The position numbers were made by a program, and so were the translations under genes. Positions 56,472 to 64,000 of a DNA stretch of 64,000 nt are shown piece by piece. Under the pieces are notes generated by a model, which made no database searches, had not been told where the DNA came from, and was given only the letters and a program-made list of their open reading frames with translations. The DNA lies in contig DASYSS010000050.1 of NCBI GenBank assembly GCA_036003045.1, positions 124,001-188,000 of the forward strand. Reading direction: 5' to 3'. The number at the start of each line of letters is the position of its first letter. Position 1 is the stretch's first letter. The DNA is from Gemmatimonadaceae bacterium (GTDB lineage Bacteria > Gemmatimonadota > Gemmatimonadetes > Gemmatimonadales > Gemmatimonadaceae).

Positions 56472-58250
56472 TCAGCGCGGTTGCTCCACTGGCGACGCCG
56501 TCATGTTCGCCCCTGACCGGAGCAGCTCGGTGATCGTGTCCGCGCTCACCGGCTCCGCGAACAGGTACCCTTGTCCGAGCGCGCAGCCGAGCGCGACGAG
56601 TCGCGCACGCTGATCGGCGCGTTCGATCCCCTCGGCGACGGTGTGGAGCCGCAGATTGGTCGCGAGCCCCAGGATCGAGCTCGCCAACGCCGCGTCGCCG
56701 CCGTTGTGTGCCACGTTGGTGATGAACGACCGGTCGATCTTGAGCATGTCCACGGGAAACCGCTGGAGATAGCTCAGGTTGCAGTACCCCGTACCGAAAT
56801 CGTCGATCGCGAGTTGCACGCCGAGTGTCTTGAGCTCACGAAGGCGCTCCACCGACGACACCACGTTCGACATCAGCACGCTCTCGGTGATCTCGAGAAT
56901 GAGGCGCTCCGCCGGGAAGCGCGTGTCCGCGAGCGCCGACGCCACGTCGCCGACGAAGTTTGGATCCTGGAGTTGCCGTGCGGACACGTTCACGCTCATG
57001 GTCGGCGCCGCACGGTCGGACGATGCGAGTTGCCATTCGCGGCCCTGCCGGCACGCCTCTCGGAGAACCCAGCGCCCGATCGGCACGATGAGTCCCGTCT
57101 GCTCCGCGACGCCGATGAACGACGCAGGCACCCGGTCGCCCGGGACTCGGTCCGGGTGTTCCCAGCGCACCAGCGCCTCGAGTCCACTGATCGACCCCGA
57201 GTCCAGCTCGACGATCGGCTGGTAGACGACGCGGAACTCTCGCCGCTCGACGGCCTGACGGAGGTCCGCCTCGAGCCCCAATCGCTCGAGCAACGCCGCA
57301 TACATACTCGGCTCGAACACGGCCCAGCGGCCCTTCCCTTCATCCTTCGCGCGGTACATCGCGACGTCGGCATTGCGGAGGAGCTCATCCATGCGATCTT
57401 CCGGCCGGGCATGTGCGATGCCGATGCTCGCCGAGATGACCACCTCACGGTCGCGCAATCGGATGGGCGTCCGGAGCGAATCCGTGATGCGGCCCACGAC
57501 CGTCAACGCGTCCTCGTCGTGCTGCAGGCCCTCGAGGAGGACCGCAAATTCGTCCCCGCCGATGCGCGCCACGCTGTCGCACCCGCGCGTCGCCTTGAGG
57601 AGGCGCTCGGCGACGACCCCGAGAAGTCGGTCGCCTTCGCCATGTCCAAGCGAATCGTTGACCGACTTGAAGTTGTCGAGGTCGAGAAGCAACATCGACA
57701 CGCATTCGCCGCGGCAAACGCCCGCCAGCGCGTGCGCCGCACGGTCTCGAAAGAGCGCGCGATTGGCGAGTCCGGTGAGCGGATCGTGAAACGCTTGATG
57801 AACGAGCTTCGCCTCGAGCGACCGATTCTCGTCCTGCAGCGCCAGATGTAAGAAGCGAGTCTCCAGCAGATTCCGCGTGCGCAACAACACTTCCATGCGA
57901 TCCAGCGGCTTCGTCAAGAAGTCCTTGGCGCCCCCCGACAGGGCGCGCTCTTTGGCGTCGCGCGTGCTGTCCGCGGTGAGAACGAGGATCGGCAAATACT
58001 CGCCCGGTCCGCACTTTTCCTTGACCAGGCGGAGCATCGCGTGGCCGTCGAGGTGCGGCATGTGCAAATCCAGTATGACGAGATCGGGTCGAAGCTCGTC
58101 GAAACGCGCGAGCGCTTCACGCGGGTCCGTGATGCCGCACACCTCGCCGTACCCGCCGCTCAGCAACACGCGCTCGAGGAGGCGAACGTTCGCCGGCTCG
58201 TCGTCAACGACGAGAATCTTCGCGCGACAAAGCAGTTCCTCCTCGATCAT
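56472..58250 (-). CDS. Response regulator with GGDEF and EAL domains (c-di-GMP turnover)
   Basis: This is a 592-residue output protein of a two-component pathway. The receiver domain (about 10-130) has the phospho-Asp in LVILDLHMPHLDG and Lys in FLTKPLD. The GGDEF domain (about 160-320) is intact (RIGGDEFAVLL), so c-di-GMP synthesis is possible. The EAL domain (about 330-580) keeps EALVRWEHP, the metal-binding block MSVNVSARQLQDPNF, ITESVLM, DDFGTGYCNLSYL and KIDRSFI, so breakdown is possible too. Its start overlaps the stop of the MHYT hybrid-kinase gene as ATGA, making that kinase the obvious partner. Confidence 0.96.
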   Translation of the reverse strand: MIEEELLCRAKILVVDDEPANVRLLERVLLSGGYGEVCGITDPREALARFDELRPDLVILDLHMPHLDGHAMLRLVKEKCGPGEYLPILVLTADSTRDAKERALSGGAKDFLTKPLDRMEVLLRTRNLLETRFLHLALQDENRSLEAKLVHQAFHDPLTGLANRALFRDRAAHALAGVCRGECVSMLLLDLDNFKSVNDSLGHGEGDRLLGVVAERLLKATRGCDSVARIGGDEFAVLLEGLQHDEDALTVVGRITDSLRTPIRLRDREVVISASIGIAHARPEDRMDELLRNADVAMYRAKDEGKGRWAVFEPSMYAALLERLGLEADLRQAVERREFRVVYQPIVELDSGSISGLEALVRWEHPDRVPGDRVPASFIGVAEQTGLIVPIGRWVLREACRQGREWQLASSDRAAPTMSVNVSARQLQDPNFVGDVASALADTRFPAERLILEITESVLMSNVVSSVERLRELKTLGVQLAIDDFGTGYCNLSYLQRFPVDMLKIDRSFITNVAHNGGDAALASSILGLATNLRLHTVAEGIERADQRARLVALGCALGQGYLFAEPVSADTITELLRSGANMTASPVEQPR

Positions 58251-60550
58251 GCGGCGCGCTCCCGGCTCATGACCTCAGTGATGATTTCAATGAACGGTTG
58301 GACCGCGAGGGGCTTGGTCACGTACGCGTGCGCGCCGGCGGCACGCAGCCGCTCCACCTGGCCCGGCGTGGCATCCGCGCTGAGGATCACGACCGGAATG
58401 TTCCGGCAATCGGCGGCGTCGCGCAGTTGCTTGAGCACCTGTTCGCCGGGGATGTCGGGCAAGTGCAGATCGAGCAGAATCAGATCGGGGCGATGCAGCC
58501 GCGCCAGCTCGAGCGCCAGCCCGCCCTGCATCGCCGGGATCAGATCGAGATCGTGGTCGCGGTCGAGTATCCGCTGCACCAGCGTCAGATTCGAGAGATT
58601 GTCTTCGACGTAGAGAATCCGGCGCCGCCCGAAGTGAAGGTCGGTCGGGCGCTTCCGGAGTCCCGCGGCCGACGCGTCTTCGAGACGCGCCAACGGACTC
58701 TCGGCCTCGGCCAGTTCCACCCAGAACGTCGTGCCGACATCGATCGCGCTCTCAACGCCGATCTCGCCGCCCATGGCCTCGGCAAGGCGACGCGACAACG
58801 CGAGGCCCAGTCCTGTTCCCTCGATGCCGCGATGCTCCGCGCCGAGCCGCTCGAACGGTGTAAACAACCGGTGGAGTTTCTCGGGGACGATTCCGGCGCC
58901 CGTGTCGCGGACGAAGATCCTCAGCCGCCCGCTCGCGACGGGTTCACTGCTCACCCGTACTTCGCCCTCGGGCCGATTGTACTTGACCGCATTGGCGACC
59001 AGGTTCAGGAGAACCTGCTTGAGGCGCTGTCGATCGGCATGCACGTAGCACTCCGCCATCGCCGACGGTTCGATCGCGAGCGTCACGTGGCCGGGCGTTG
59101 CCAGCGGCGCCACCAAGTCGATGATCTCTCGCACGACTTCGTTGACGGCGACTGGTTCGGTCGACACGTGCAGGCGGCCCGATTCGATCCGCGTGATGTC
59201 CAGGACTTCGTCGATCAGCGCCAGGAGGTGTCGGCCTGCCTTGAGAATCTGATCGCCGCTCTCGCGAAGCCCTGGCGTCGTCGCGTCGAGCTCGATGAGC
59301 TGACCGAAGCCGAGAATCGCGTTCAACGGTGTGCGCAGCTCGTGGCTCATGCGCGAGAGGAATTCGCTCTTGGCGCGGCTTGCCGCCTCGGCGACCTCCC
59401 GAGCGTGACGGAGCGCTTCTTCGGCGCGCCGGCGATCGGTTACGTCGCGAATCACGCCCGCGGCGCCCGCGAAATCTCCCTCGGCGCCGCGCGACGCTCG
59501 TGCGCGGACCTCGAGCCATCGTGTCTCGTTGCCCTTGGTCGAACACCGAATCTCGAACTGGGCGTAGTCGGTGCGTCCGGCGCGGAGGGCCGCATACTGT
59601 TCGACGACCGCGGCTCGATCCTCCCCGTGCGCGCATTCGTGGATCTCGATGCCGAGCGTCTCGGCGACCGTGTAGCCCGTGATGCCGGTCCATGCGGGAT
59701 TCAAGAACGTCCATCGTCCGGAGGCATCGGTCCGAAAGATCACCTCGTCGACCTCACTGACGACGGAACGATAGCGCTCTTCGCTCTCGCGCAGCGCCTC
59801 CGCCGCGGTGAGTTGTGCGCGGACCCAGCGATCCGTCGTCGAGCCGACCATCGTCAGCGCGAGGATCACGAAAGCGCCAAGGACTACCGGCAGCGCCAGC
59901 CCCGTCGTACCGATGAGAAACTGATCGTCCATCGGTGGCATCGCGCCAGCCGATGAGAAGTGCGCGGCCGCCATCGCGGTGTAGTGCATGCCGGCGATGG
60001 CGAGGCCCATGACCACCGCGGCAATCGGGCGGAGCACCCGCCCACGTCGCGTCTCATCGTTGCGCAACCAGAGAAAGAGCCAGAGCGCTACGGTCGACGC
60101 GGCGATCGCGACGGCGACTGATGCGGCCACGAGCACGGGATCGTAGGTCAATCGCGCATCCACGCGCACCGCCGCCATGCCGGTATAGTGCATGACGACG
60201 ACGGCCACGCCGAGGCAGACACCGGCGGCGAGCCGACCCGCAATGCCCACCCGCGGTCGCCCCGCGACAAACAGCGCGAACGCGGACGCGACGACGGCCG
60301 CGAGATACGACAACGCCATGAACCACGCGTCGTACGCGATTTCGACCGGAAGATGAAACGCGAGCATGGCAACGAAGTGCATGCTCCAAATGCCGCTCCC
60401 CATCGCGACGCTTCCGCCAAGGAGCCACGCGGTGCGCGCGCGTCCGCGAGCGACCGTGACCCTGCCCGCCAGCGTGAGCGCGGTGTAGGACGCGCAGATC
60501 GCGATCAGAACGGAGAGCGCGACGAGCGGGAACTCATGAGTGCTGTGCAT
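58247..60550 (-). CDS. MHYT-domain hybrid sensor histidine kinase
   Basis: This is a 767-residue membrane kinase. The N-terminal MHYT domain has seven helices and three signature copies (SMHFVAM, MHYTGMAA, MHYTAMAA), proposed to hold copper and sense O2, CO or NO. A PAS domain follows (ERYRSVVSEVDEVIFRTDASGRW ... ITGYTVAETLG). HisKA has the His in SRMSHELRTPLNAILG. HATPase has NLVANAVKYN, RDTGAGI and GTGLGLALSRRLAE. A C-terminal receiver has its Asp in LILLDLHLPDIPG. Coupled by ATGA to the REC-GGDEF-EAL gene, it probably links gas or redox sensing to c-di-GMP. Confidence 0.96.
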   Translation of the reverse strand: MHSTHEFPLVALSVLIAICASYTALTLAGRVTVARGRARTAWLLGGSVAMGSGIWSMHFVAMLAFHLPVEIAYDAWFMALSYLAAVVASAFALFVAGRPRVGIAGRLAAGVCLGVAVVVMHYTGMAAVRVDARLTYDPVLVAASVAVAIAASTVALWLFLWLRNDETRRGRVLRPIAAVVMGLAIAGMHYTAMAAAHFSSAGAMPPMDDQFLIGTTGLALPVVLGAFVILALTMVGSTTDRWVRAQLTAAEALRESEERYRSVVSEVDEVIFRTDASGRWTFLNPAWTGITGYTVAETLGIEIHECAHGEDRAAVVEQYAALRAGRTDYAQFEIRCSTKGNETRWLEVRARASRGAEGDFAGAAGVIRDVTDRRRAEEALRHAREVAEAASRAKSEFLSRMSHELRTPLNAILGFGQLIELDATTPGLRESGDQILKAGRHLLALIDEVLDITRIESGRLHVSTEPVAVNEVVREIIDLVAPLATPGHVTLAIEPSAMAECYVHADRQRLKQVLLNLVANAVKYNRPEGEVRVSSEPVASGRLRIFVRDTGAGIVPEKLHRLFTPFERLGAEHRGIEGTGLGLALSRRLAEAMGGEIGVESAIDVGTTFWVELAEAESPLARLEDASAAGLRKRPTDLHFGRRRILYVEDNLSNLTLVQRILDRDHDLDLIPAMQGGLALELARLHRPDLILLDLHLPDIPGEQVLKQLRDAADCRNIPVVILSADATPGQVERLRAAGAHAYVTKPLAVQPFIEIITEVMSRERAA

Positions 60551-60749: not shown

Positions 60750-61823
60750 TCATCTGGCGGCGTGCGGCTCGCCGTAGATGAAGTCGTCCATCACGACGAT
60801 ATCTCGGTTCCCTTCAGCACTCGCGTTGTCGTCCACGGCAGCGTCAACCGGGGTTTTGCCCGAGGTGATCCGCACTCGTGCGACAATCGCTGCTTCGAAC
60901 ACGGCGCCGACAAATGAGAGGCCCGCTGCATCGCTCCGTCGAGGCGCCTTTACGGTCGCCAGCAGGTTTCCGGCGGCATCGAAGTACTCGATGGTGGTCG
61001 AATTCTCGAGCCCGACGTCGGCGAACACTGAACCGAATCCGGTCACCAACGCCTGCGTATTCGATCCGGCGACGACGAACTGAACATCGGTGACCGTGCT
61101 GCCCCTCGCCGTGAAGAGCTTCGGTCGGCTGAAGACGTTGAACTCGCCGGCGTAGTTCGCGTTCACGTCGACGTATCCATTGTCGCTGATCCGGAACGCT
61201 GACCCGGGCGTCGTGAATAGCACCCCGCGCGGCGAATTCACGTTGAAGAAGTTGCCGGGGAACAGGTCGTTGTTCGTGAATGCCGCGGGGACGCCGTCCC
61301 AGTTTATCTCGCGTCGCCCGTCTGCCTTCTCTCCCGCGACGTTCGGGTTGAGCGTACCAAGTAGAGCTCGATAGTCGTTGACGGAAGCGGTGATGTCGCC
61401 CGTTGCGCTCGTGATCTGCACGTTGTGCGCTGTCGCCGAAATCGTGACGGAGGTACCGTTCGCGATCGCCGCCCGCAGGGAATCAACGCCCGCCGCCGGT
61501 CCCATCGTCCACGCGATCGACGTGTTTCCGTTTGCATCCGTCTGGCTGGTCGGCGTGTTGACCGATCCGCCACCGAACGTGACCGTCCAAGTGACCACGG
61601 CGTTCGCGAGCGAGGCACCATTCTGATCCAAGACGTGCACGACAATCGGCTGAGCGAGCGGCTGGCCGACCAGGCCGACCTGTCCGTTGCCCGTGTTCAG
61701 CGTAATGCTCGTCGCGGCGAGCACCACCGCGTTGATGCCGTTGTCGTTGCAGGCCGCGCTACTCAGCAGGAGCACGCCGCCCACGGCCGGTACAAGCCAC
61801 CGCGCATAACTACGTTGTTGCAT
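60750..61823 (-). CDS. Lipoprotein with Big-1 Ig domain and a PEP-CTERM-like beta domain
   Basis: This is a 357-residue lipoprotein. The Sec signal ends in SSAAC (Cys about 25). One Ig-like Big-1 domain (about 40-135) has VVHVLDQNGASLANAVVTWTV and TDANGNTSIAWTMG. The rest is a beta-sandwich domain with INWDGVPAAFTNNDLFPGNFFNVNSPRGVLFTT, VTDVQFVVAGSNTQALVTGFGSVFADV and FVGAVFEAAIVARVRITSG, as in proteins that often precede PEP-CTERM tails; no such tail is present here. The ATG at 61823 has GGAGGGG eight bases upstream. The function is unknown; surface binding is likely. Confidence 0.85.
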   Translation of the reverse strand: MQQRSYARWLVPAVGGVLLLSSAACNDNGINAVVLAATSITLNTGNGQVGLVGQPLAQPIVVHVLDQNGASLANAVVTWTVTFGGGSVNTPTSQTDANGNTSIAWTMGPAAGVDSLRAAIANGTSVTISATAHNVQITSATGDITASVNDYRALLGTLNPNVAGEKADGRREINWDGVPAAFTNNDLFPGNFFNVNSPRGVLFTTPGSAFRISDNGYVDVNANYAGEFNVFSRPKLFTARGSTVTDVQFVVAGSNTQALVTGFGSVFADVGLENSTTIEYFDAAGNLLATVKAPRRSDAAGLSFVGAVFEAAIVARVRITSGKTPVDAAVDDNASAEGNRDIVVMDDFIYGEPHAAR

Positions 61824-62057
61824 GTTCACTACCCCTCCCTACTAGCAATGAGTCAGTTGTTGGCTTCTGCACTTGAAGACGCGCGCATCGGCGTGATCCG
61901 GACAGAGGCGCGATGTCGGTCGAGGGCATTGGACATACCGCACGCGCCGCGCTGAGGGCTGAAGCCGGAAACTCCTGTTGACGTCGATCTCACGGGAATA
62001 ACGCATCAGGTTGGGCGATCTCCTTTACGACTCTTGAGCCGTGAAGGGAGGTCGTCG

Positions 62058-62303
62058 ATGTCCCGCGAAATCGGATTGACGCAGGTGTTCATCTTCGTTG
62101 CGCTGCTCTTCACCCTCTACCGGGTTCGCAGAGGGCTGCCGCGGGGCGCACTCCGCGCCTGGCGCCAAGCGCGACGGTCGCGCGACTGGAAGGCCGCGTA
62201 TCACTTTGCGCACGGTCACCGGGAATATCGTGACCGGCGCGTCGGTCTTGGGTGGAGAGCCCCAGCGCTCACGCCACCACCACACGAGAATCGACCGCGA
62301 TGA
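62058..62303 (+). CDS. Small single-span membrane protein
   Basis: This 81-residue product starts MSREIGLTQVFIFVALLFTL, giving one N-terminal membrane helix (about 8-23). A strongly basic cytosolic part follows (RRGLPRGALRAWRQARRSRD) and a short Pro-rich end. GGGAGG lies six bases upstream of the ATG, the best ribosome site nearby, and the stop overlaps the start of the phosphoesterase gene as ATGA. That suggests production together with, or as a translational control for, the exported phosphoesterase. No family recognised. Confidence 0.7.
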   Translation: MSREIGLTQVFIFVALLFTLYRVRRGLPRGALRAWRQARRSRDWKAAYHFAHGHREYRDRRVGLGWRAPALTPPPHENRPR

Positions 62304-63643
62304 GCAACCACAACGACCGCGACAGCGACCGGTTCGACGCGCAGGGCAACACGCGTCCTACCGGATCCAACTACATCACCACCGACCAGAGCGACGACGG
62401 CATCGACCGGCGCGGCTTTCTGCGCTGTATGGCATGGGCTGGGACGGCGACGGTCTGGGGAATGGTGGGTGGAATTCCCACCTCCTTCCCCGTCAGCCGC
62501 CTGCCCTATCTCACGGACGTCCAGCGCAAGAGCATCTTCTTCGTCCAGATCAGCGACAGTCACATCGGCTTCAACAAGGAAGCGAACAAGGACGTGACCG
62601 CGACGCTGCAGGAGGCGGTGGCGAAGGTGAACGCGCTGCCGCAGCGGCCCGCGCTCGTCTTGCACACCGGTGACATCACCCAACTCGCCAAGGCGGAGGA
62701 ATTCGACACGGCGAACGAGGTATTGAAGGGACTCAAGACCAGCCGCGTCTTTTACGTCCCCGGCGAGCACGACGTCGCGACGGACAACGGCGTCACGTAT
62801 CTCAAGCGATACGGCAAGGGCACGAAGGGCGGTGGCTGGTACAGCTTCGACCACTCAGGCGTCCATTTCATCGGCCTTGTCAACGTCCTCAATCTCAAGG
62901 CGGGCGGACTCGGCTCACTCGGTGCCGAGCAGATCGCGTGGCTCAAAAAGGACGTCGCGGCGTTGCCATCGAGCGCGCCGCTCGTGCTGTTCGCGCACGT
63001 GCCGCTGTGGACGGTGTATCCGGAGTGGGGTTGGGGGACCGATGATTCGCAGCAGGCGTTGGATCTTCTCAAGCGCTTCGGATCGGTCACGGTGCTGAAC
63101 GGCCACATTCACCAGATCATGCAGAAGGTCGAAGGCAACGTGTCGTTCCACACCGCCATGTCGACCGCGTTTCCGCAGCCGACGCCCGGCACGGCGCCGG
63201 CACCGGGCCCGATGAAGGTCGAGCCGGAGCGGCTCAAGAGTGTCCTCGGCATCACCAACGTCACGTTCATTCCGGGGCGCGGCGCGCTCGCCGTCGTCGA
63301 CGCGACGCTATCCGGTGAACCGCCGGCGTTCGAGGCGGCGTCGCACGACGCGATGATGCAGCGGAAGGCGAGCCGGAAGAACTTCACGCTCGCGGCGAAC
63401 GAGATCGGGATCGACAACTTTGCGTTCGCGCCCTCACCGTTGACCGTGAAGGCCGGCACGACCGTGACGTGGATCAACAAGGACGACGTGCCCCATCTCA
63501 TCGTGAGCACGCAGGCCAAGTTCAAGCCGTCGACCGTTCTGGACACGGACCAGCGTTTCAGCGTGACGCTCGCCAAGCCGGGCACCTACGCGTACTACTG
63601 CTCGTTGCATCCGATGATGCAGGGGAAGATCGTCGTGGAGTAG
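62300..63643 (+). CDS. Tat-exported metallophosphoesterase fused to a cupredoxin domain
   Basis: This 447-residue protein has three parts. A twin-arginine signal (IDRRGFLRC, Arg37-Arg38) is followed by a calcineurin-like phosphoesterase (about 75-320) with D86-x-H88, GD 124-125, GEHD 155-158 (GNHD in most relatives), His233 in AHVPLW and GHIH 268-271. The C-terminal cupredoxin domain (about 355-447) has a His in VPHLIVS and Cys434, His437 and Met440 in CSLHPMMQG. The fusion implies a periplasmic hydrolase paired with a copper electron carrier. The substrate is unknown. The start overlaps the small membrane-protein gene as ATGA, and a strong terminator follows. Confidence 0.9.
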   Translation: MSNHNDRDSDRFDAQGNTRPTGSNYITTDQSDDGIDRRGFLRCMAWAGTATVWGMVGGIPTSFPVSRLPYLTDVQRKSIFFVQISDSHIGFNKEANKDVTATLQEAVAKVNALPQRPALVLHTGDITQLAKAEEFDTANEVLKGLKTSRVFYVPGEHDVATDNGVTYLKRYGKGTKGGGWYSFDHSGVHFIGLVNVLNLKAGGLGSLGAEQIAWLKKDVAALPSSAPLVLFAHVPLWTVYPEWGWGTDDSQQALDLLKRFGSVTVLNGHIHQIMQKVEGNVSFHTAMSTAFPQPTPGTAPAPGPMKVEPERLKSVLGITNVTFIPGRGALAVVDATLSGEPPAFEAASHDAMMQRKASRKNFTLAANEIGIDNFAFAPSPLTVKAGTTVTWINKDDVPHLIVSTQAKFKPSTVLDTDQRFSVTLAKPGTYAYYCSLHPMMQGKIVVE

Positions 63644-63665
63644 CGTCGAGCGCGGAGCCGCAACA

Positions 63666-63704
63666 CGAGAGAGGGGACTCGCGATTGGCGAGTCCCCTCT
63701 CTCG
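63666..63704. terminator. Bidirectional 17-bp hairpin terminator between convergent genes
   Basis: A perfect 17-base-pair stem from 63666-63682 to 63688-63704 with a GATTG loop, followed by TTTG on the plus strand. It lies 22 bases after the phosphoesterase stop and 26 bases after the tatC stop on the other strand, so it can serve both. Confidence 0.85.
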
Positions 63705-63730
63705 TTTGCCCGGACCTTCGCGATCTACGA

Positions 63731-64000
63731 TCAGTAGCGGCGGCGGCTCGCGACGCGCCGACCGGCGACAATGCTCAACTCGTAGAGCGCGTACAGCGGC
63801 GCGGCCATGGCGATCGTCGTCCACACCAGATCGCCCGGCGTGAGCAGCGCGCCAACCAGCACGCTGCCGAACAGCGCGACGCGACGGAGCTCGACCAAGC
63901 GTTGCGGCGTCACGATGTCCAGCCACACGAGGCCGACGACGACGATCGGGAGCTGGAAGCCAAGCCCGAACGCGAGCGCCATGTCGACGGCGAAGGAGAA
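63731..64000 (-). CDS. tatC: TatC, Sec-independent translocase subunit (partial, 3' part)
   Basis: About 89 C-terminal residues of TatC are visible, running off the right edge: FSFAVDMALAFGLGFQLPIV, then LVWLDIVTPQRLVELRRVALFGSVLVGALLTPGDLVWTTIAMAAPLYALYELSI. The Phe/Gly-rich helix with GxxFQLP and the block ALLTPGD are the usual C-terminal signature, covering the last two helices. TatC is the receptor of the twin-arginine export pathway, needed by the phosphoesterase next door and by the DsrE-like protein at 30.5 kb. The N-terminus and any tatA/tatB genes lie outside the window. Confidence 0.9.
   Translation of the reverse strand, partial: FSFAVDMALAFGLGFQLPIVVVGLVWLDIVTPQRLVELRRVALFGSVLVGALLTPGDLVWTTIAMAAPLYALYELSIVAGRRVASRRRY

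Follow-up and report, generated by a model that had tools for sequence, protein, structure and literature searches.

A Tat-type metallophosphoesterase-cupredoxin fusion gene behind an ECF26-type promoter in a Gemmatimonadaceae bacterium

The fusion gene and its surroundings

The window, that is, the whole 64,000-nucleotide stretch analysed, is G000:C50:124001-188000 from a Gemmatimonadaceae bacterium, and the contig ends 74 bases beyond it. Close to this end, on the forward strand at 62300..63643, is an open reading frame of 447 amino acids, recognised as a gene from its Pfam domains and its relatives, in which a metallophosphoesterase (MPE) domain is joined to a cupredoxin behind a Tat-type signal. 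Pfam places Metallophos at residues 81-272 (44.3 bits against a cut-off of 21.5) and, at the C-terminus, both Copper-bind (residues 368-447, 46.8 bits, cut-off 21.2) and Cupredoxin_1 (residues 367-446, 47.5 bits, cut-off 27). Near the N-terminus is the twin-arginine motif D36-R-R-G-F-L41 (62405..62422, forward strand), whose R37 and R38 are invariant in 43 aligned relatives. As in Tat substrates, RR-x-F-L stands ahead of a hydrophobic stretch, DRRGFLRCMAWAGTATVWGM, and the fusion protein is predicted to be exported by the Tat pathway to the periplasm.

The MPE domain, delimited from an AlphaFold model (mc63faacc7a88) and a structural match to GpdQ, covers residues 79-341 (62534..63322, forward strand). 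It carries the metal motifs D86-S-H88, G124-D125, G155-E156-H157-D158, H233 and G268-H269-I-H271. The type I cupredoxin domain, assigned from Pfam and a structural match, covers residues 366-447 (63395..63640, forward strand), with H399, C434, H437 and M440 giving the His-Cys-His-Met ligands of a type I copper site on a cupredoxin fold. A sequence-only reading of the locus had described complete phosphoesterase motifs with GEHD, joined to a type I copper domain behind a twin-arginine signal, and this description is confirmed in full.

The AlphaFold model of the fusion has a mean pLDDT of 69.9; the MPE core and the cupredoxin are confidently predicted, with low confidence at residues 270-275 and 286-361. 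The best structural match of the MPE domain is GpdQ (2zo9_B, Z 21.4, 221 residues, rmsd 2.8), with further matches to Rv0805 (Z 17.9) and pig purple acid phosphatase (Z 15.7), and the C-terminal domain matches the cupredoxin 5fc9_A with Z 13.7 and an rmsd of 1.4 over 82 residues. Neither domain reaches an NCBIfam equivalog: CpdA scores 45.8 bits (cut-off 225) and amicyanin 58.3 bits (cut-off 110.2). The same genome holds a second copy of the fusion (G000:C2:63176-64513), 79% identical to that in the window, and elsewhere a tandem pair of other MPE genes (G000:C7:67131-68831).

An 81-codon frame with one hydrophobic segment (62058..62303, forward strand) overlaps the start of the MPE gene as ATGA, and the sequence-only reading had taken it for a membrane protein coupled to the fusion. 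The overlap and the hydrophobic stretch (Kyte-Doolittle mean 1.89 over 19 residues) are there, as is a good ribosome-binding sequence; the coupling is not borne out. No homologue was found in 58 related genomes. GC3 is coding-like in the first 56 codons (0.79) and of non-coding composition in the last 25 (0.52), and these last 25 codons cover a conserved promoter. In a relative (G018) the frame is closed, and the sequence that aligns with its 3' part is non-coding promoter DNA. For want of a homologue, and given the non-coding 3' composition and the promoter beneath it, the frame is unsupported as a gene and rejected as an operon partner; whether orphan gene or spurious frame, it probably lies outside the conserved system.

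On the other side, the 3' part of tatC (63731..64000, reverse strand; Pfam TatC, 57.9 bits) runs convergently towards the fusion gene. Between the two is a perfect, terminator-like 17-bp inverted repeat (63666-63682 / 63688-63704, hence 63666..63704). The adjacency noticed in the sequence-only reading is real, but tatC is convergent and set off by the inverted repeat, and so is not an operon partner; it is also absent from the clustered neighbours of relatives, and a functional linkage is not supported.

Further upstream, on the reverse strand, the window contains two signalling genes with an ATGA overlap (56472-60550), whose domains were assigned by eye: one of 767 amino acids with an MHYT-like membrane region, a histidine kinase and a receiver, and one encoding a 592-residue receiver-GGDEF-EAL protein. 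They are followed at 60750-61829, also on the reverse strand, by a gene for a 359-residue secreted lipoprotein-like protein, with a weak match to Big_1 (Ig-like), under the Pfam cut-off.

Conservation of the metal sites and of the gene pair

The fusion has 20 close relatives at 61-83% identity, full-length for most; those with named records are Gemmatimonadota, among them Gemmatirosa kalamazoonensis (NZ_CP007129.1). One collection scan gave at least 570 confirmed relatives, which rules out a fusion restricted to this genome. GEHD, together with the other MPE motifs, is invariant in 21/21 close family members, and it is present in all of the best 80 among the at least 570 relatives. It is also found in actinobacterial and Burkholderia relatives, and it is kept in members from Cupriavidus, Methylocystis and Sinorhizobium at 27-34% identity. 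This conservation across phyla rules out a sequencing or lineage oddity. The other MPEs of the same genome have GNHD or GNHE where motif III is readable, several of these control loci having no clear motif.

E156 (codon at 62765..62767, forward strand) is aligned with N80 of GpdQ, a metal ligand in that enzyme, and is invariant in the relatives checked. The GNH[DE] pattern of PF00149, with Asn in motif III, is thus not found in the family: every member read has Glu. When the divergent members are included, D86, H88, D125, E156, H157, D158, H233, H269 and H271 are all invariant, as are Y240 and W243 (in aromatic loops), D249 and Q272. As judged from these alignments, the family keeps the full set of seven residues with which MPEs bind two metals, the motif III Asn always being changed to Glu. 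Because the motifs of the fusion are all invariant in relatives, we consider that they are not there by chance. Copper ligands that vary among homologues would have spoken against the sequence-only reading, but H399, C434, H437 and M440 are invariant in 19/19 close relatives with a complete cupredoxin domain.

The two domains are fused in Gemmatimonadota, where this is the rule, in some Acidobacteria and some Verrucomicrobia, and in Fimbriimonas (Armatimonadota). In Bradyrhizobium, Mesorhizobium and other Alphaproteobacteria, a separate cupredoxin gene lies directly 3' of the MPE stop codon, and on Streptomyces and Mycobacteroides plasmids the cupredoxin gene is upstream and overlaps the MPE gene, so that the order is cupredoxin-MPE in Actinobacteria and MPE-cupredoxin elsewhere. 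The other outcome named as refuting the sequence-only reading, domains that are separate in all relatives, did not occur either: they are joined in Gemmatimonadota and encoded by adjacent genes in Bradyrhizobium, Streptomyces and others. Mapped on a tree of 99 rows, the fused state has to change 7 times; well-supported branches make at least 4 of these changes unavoidable, and a single origin of the fusion is thus unsupported. Two rows of the Gemmatimonadota clade that are labelled as alone (L045, L057) are truncated by the ends of their contigs. One row (L142, JAUEPE010000001.1), labelled Frankia sp. RB7, nests in Bradyrhizobium with the same neighbours, and its label is probably wrong.

That the domains were joined or split repeatedly, and in two gene orders, speaks for MPE and cupredoxin as a functional pair. 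Within 3 kb of the MPE there is a cupredoxin in 78/80 relatives (fusions counted) and a sigma homologue in 68/80; a separate count over the 80 distant loci gives a sigma homologue in 69 and an anti-sigma homologue in 64. Since the 80 loci are not independent, many being Bradyrhizobium, these counts describe conservation and give no probability. Of 15 control neighbourhoods around this genome's other MPEs, none (0/15) contains a homologue of cupredoxin, sigma, Rieske or DUF2231 within 3 kb. Many operons hold MPE and cupredoxin as the sole genes besides sigma and anti-sigma, and a few relatives lack a sigma factor or cupredoxin match in the sequence available around the locus. MPE and cupredoxin are evolutionarily coupled, and the fusion is one form of a widespread two-domain system. 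The proposal that a hydrolase-type domain here has its own electron carrier is supported by the invariant ligands and by fusion being the rule in Gemmatimonadota. No description of a bacterial metallophosphoesterase-cupredoxin pair was found in the literature searched, and this large family is apparently undescribed.

Several relatives have further redox genes nearby. There is a cytochrome c gene beside two of them (L141, L152), a Rieske gene beside L148, a diheme cytochrome peroxidase gene beside L159 and a CuA-like cupredoxin, judged from its own sequence, beside L158; on a M. abscessus plasmid (L154) the order is sigma-Rieske-cupredoxin-MPE. DUF2231 membrane proteins and DUF420 are also among the neighbours. 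SCO, cytochrome c and cbb3 oxidase subunit genes lie near the S. fredii/Phyllobacterium relatives, soxYZ near the S. meliloti pSymA relative, and sox and sulfite-exporter genes near some relatives. On S. meliloti pSymA (L173) and a Phyllobacterium plasmid (L174), the conserved cluster around a distant GEHD MPE contains SCO, hemA, groEL, a cytochrome c and, as a separate gene, a regulatory-like domain protein of cupredoxin-like appearance, with cbb3 oxidase subunits or soxYZ nearby.

The ECF sigma switch and its promoter

Neighbour clustering shows that anti-sigma and ECF sigma genes (Pfam Sigma70_r2, r4_2 and zf-HC2) adjoin the MPE gene in most close relatives, and that the second copy, on contig C2, has them too. 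Neither a sigma nor an anti-sigma gene adjoins the window copy, and this type of anti-sigma occurs once in the genome. Given that the window copy is without a sigma gene of its own, it is probably controlled in trans from C2.

An ECF-type promoter, GGAATA-N15-CGGTCT (62222..62248, forward strand), lies 78 bp before the MPE start codon, and almost every close relative has the element ahead of its MPE gene. Among distant loci, GGAAT[AT] is found upstream of the MPE in 74/79, compared with 7.6 in shuffled sequence, and the strict form GGAATA-N15-NNGTC in 26/79, compared with 0.05 in shuffles; the spacer length peaks at exactly 15. The published ECF26 consensus is -35 GGAATA and -10 GT (PMC6180224). 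The window promoter agrees with it in both elements and in fixed spacing, and it is on this promoter match that the label ECF26-type rests, Pfam and NCBIfam profiles placing the sigma factor at ECF level only. A possible second element, GGAATA-N15-CGATCT (61995..62021, forward strand), lies before the 81-codon frame; it is weak, having ATCT in place of GTCT, and comes from sequence alone.

A stricter form of the motif has 13 matches in 98 genomes and 0 in a reversed control. By coordinates, 8 of the 13 are at MPE/sigma loci, and 2 more precede sigma genes of the same type. Across its own genome, strict promoter matches gave no convincing further target for a wider regulon. From the promoter and gene positions, the MPE-cupredoxin pair is predicted to be what an ECF sigma/anti-sigma switch, acting through an ECF26-type promoter, chiefly controls at the locus. 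The sequence-only reading was silent on this switch and its promoter, as on the second genome copy and the two-gene form. A search of the literature found no paper in which ECF26 and a phosphoesterase appear together.

Two side observations belong here. In one relative a strict ECF26-type promoter match (L220, G049:C90:8694-8720) lies just before a tatA-tatC pair; it may be chance, or Tat may be co-regulated with its MPE-cupredoxin substrate. In two related genomes (L210 in G096, L211 in G079) the same sigma type and promoter motif occur, and no full-length MPE-cupredoxin was found there.

Proposed function and comparison with known systems

The fusion is best read as a redox-coupled di-metal enzyme that belongs to an ECF26-type stress response, a reading to which we assign a probability of roughly one half. 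The enzyme would be exported by the Tat pathway and act in the periplasm, its di-metal centre, on the MPE fold, cooperating with a blue-copper electron carrier. The extra carboxylate of E156 would make metal site 2 anionic, disfavouring the binding of phosphate esters and favouring a metal with redox activity, for instance iron or manganese. The cupredoxin would shuttle electrons between the di-metal centre and the respiratory chain, a carrier role that cytochrome c or Rieske proteins could fill in relatives. On envelope stress, the anti-sigma factor would free the sigma factor, leading to transcription of the genes for sigma, anti-sigma and MPE-cupredoxin, with the sigma factor encoded next to the second copy acting in trans on the window copy. 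The enzyme might then oxidise, reduce or repair a stress-related small molecule of the periplasm. A sulfur oxyanion is our guess for the substrate, because the S. meliloti ECF26 system responds to sulfite and because sox and sulfite-exporter genes lie near some relatives.

A redox-active metal centre appears likelier in view of the neighbours of relatives (cupredoxin, cytochrome c, Rieske, diheme peroxidase, cbb3 oxidase), and the pairing across several phyla, beside a dedicated stress-response switch, suggests that a known hydrolase fold was recruited into redox chemistry. Against this, true phosphodiesterases (GpdQ, Rv0805) have the most similar fold, and the change from Asn to Glu may merely tune a hydrolase. 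The mixed-valence form of purple acid phosphatases is the active one, and on this model the protein would be a redox-gated phosphodiesterase or phosphatase of the periplasm, with the oxidation state of an iron-containing di-metal centre set by the cupredoxin. Such an enzyme would fit the structural matches, GpdQ and Rv0805 being nearest and purple acid phosphatases next, and the retention of all hydrolytic motifs save N80, and E156 could bind the second metal; the exchange of Asn80, without exception, for an anionic residue at the phosphate position tells against it, and we hold it to be rather unlikely.

More doubtful is an ordinary MPE hydrolase whose cupredoxin serves another redox protein, the two being together only through one shared stress regulon. 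The separate genes of Alphaproteobacteria and Actinobacteria would suit this, and the true partner of the cupredoxin could be among the other redox genes that some operons contain, but this view leaves unexplained the fusions in four phyla (Gemmatimonadota, Acidobacteria, Verrucomicrobia and Armatimonadota), the pairing in both gene orders and the many operons with only MPE, cupredoxin, sigma and anti-sigma. It is improbable, too, that the locus is a copper-handling module, with copper bound or delivered by the cupredoxin, and with copper or damage to the cell envelope as the signal for the ECF system. The invariant copper ligands and an SCO gene near the S. meliloti relative would suit this, but those ligands make up a site of the electron-transfer kind, most like amicyanin and plastocyanin; the clustered neighbours include neither a copper exporter nor a multicopper oxidase; and the characterised ECF26 factors respond to sulfite.

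Extending the reading of a redox-coupled enzyme to the family, we tentatively propose, with less than even odds, a new class of periplasmic oxidoreductases on the MPE fold, marked by GEHD, paired with a dedicated cupredoxin or cytochrome c/Rieske protein and switched by ECF26-type stress systems in six phyla (Gemmatimonadota, Acidobacteriota, Verrucomicrobiota, Armatimonadota, Pseudomonadota and Actinomycetota). Many proteins carry a bare metallophosphoesterase annotation, and a diagnostic change of metal ligand that travels with an electron carrier across phyla implies that this annotation may misstate their chemistry. If the centre is redox-active, a fold associated with hydrolysis would gain an oxidoreductase, and the ECF26 stress systems, which are poorly understood, would have a concrete target.

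Among known systems, the class III phosphodiesterases GpdQ (the glycerophosphodiesterase of Enterobacter aerogenes) and Rv0805 share the MPE fold and all metal ligands but one with the fusion, and differ from it at about 21% identity in that Asn80 is Glu in all family members, which have in addition a Tat-type signal and a cupredoxin partner. Purple acid phosphatases, in which a redox-active Fe centre is known, have the same fold (Z 15.7), but neither GEHD nor a separate copper electron carrier. The cupredoxin domain has the H-C-H-M ligand set of amicyanin and plastocyanin, with the C-x2-H-x2-M spacing of amicyanin; unlike these it is fused to an MPE, and no methylamine dehydrogenase is seen beside the fusion gene. 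In S. meliloti, the ECF26 factors RpoE1 and RpoE4 respond to sulfite and drive sorT-sorU-azu2, their target being a sulfite dehydrogenase with cytochrome and blue-copper (azu2) partners (PMC3511301). The present system resembles it in the promoter (-35 GGAATA, -10 GT), the sigma-anti-sigma pair, found beside the second copy and in most relatives, and a periplasmic enzyme with a dedicated blue-copper carrier (PMC3511301, PMC6180224), but its target is an MPE rather than a molybdenum sulfite dehydrogenase, and its regulon is apparently confined to the locus.
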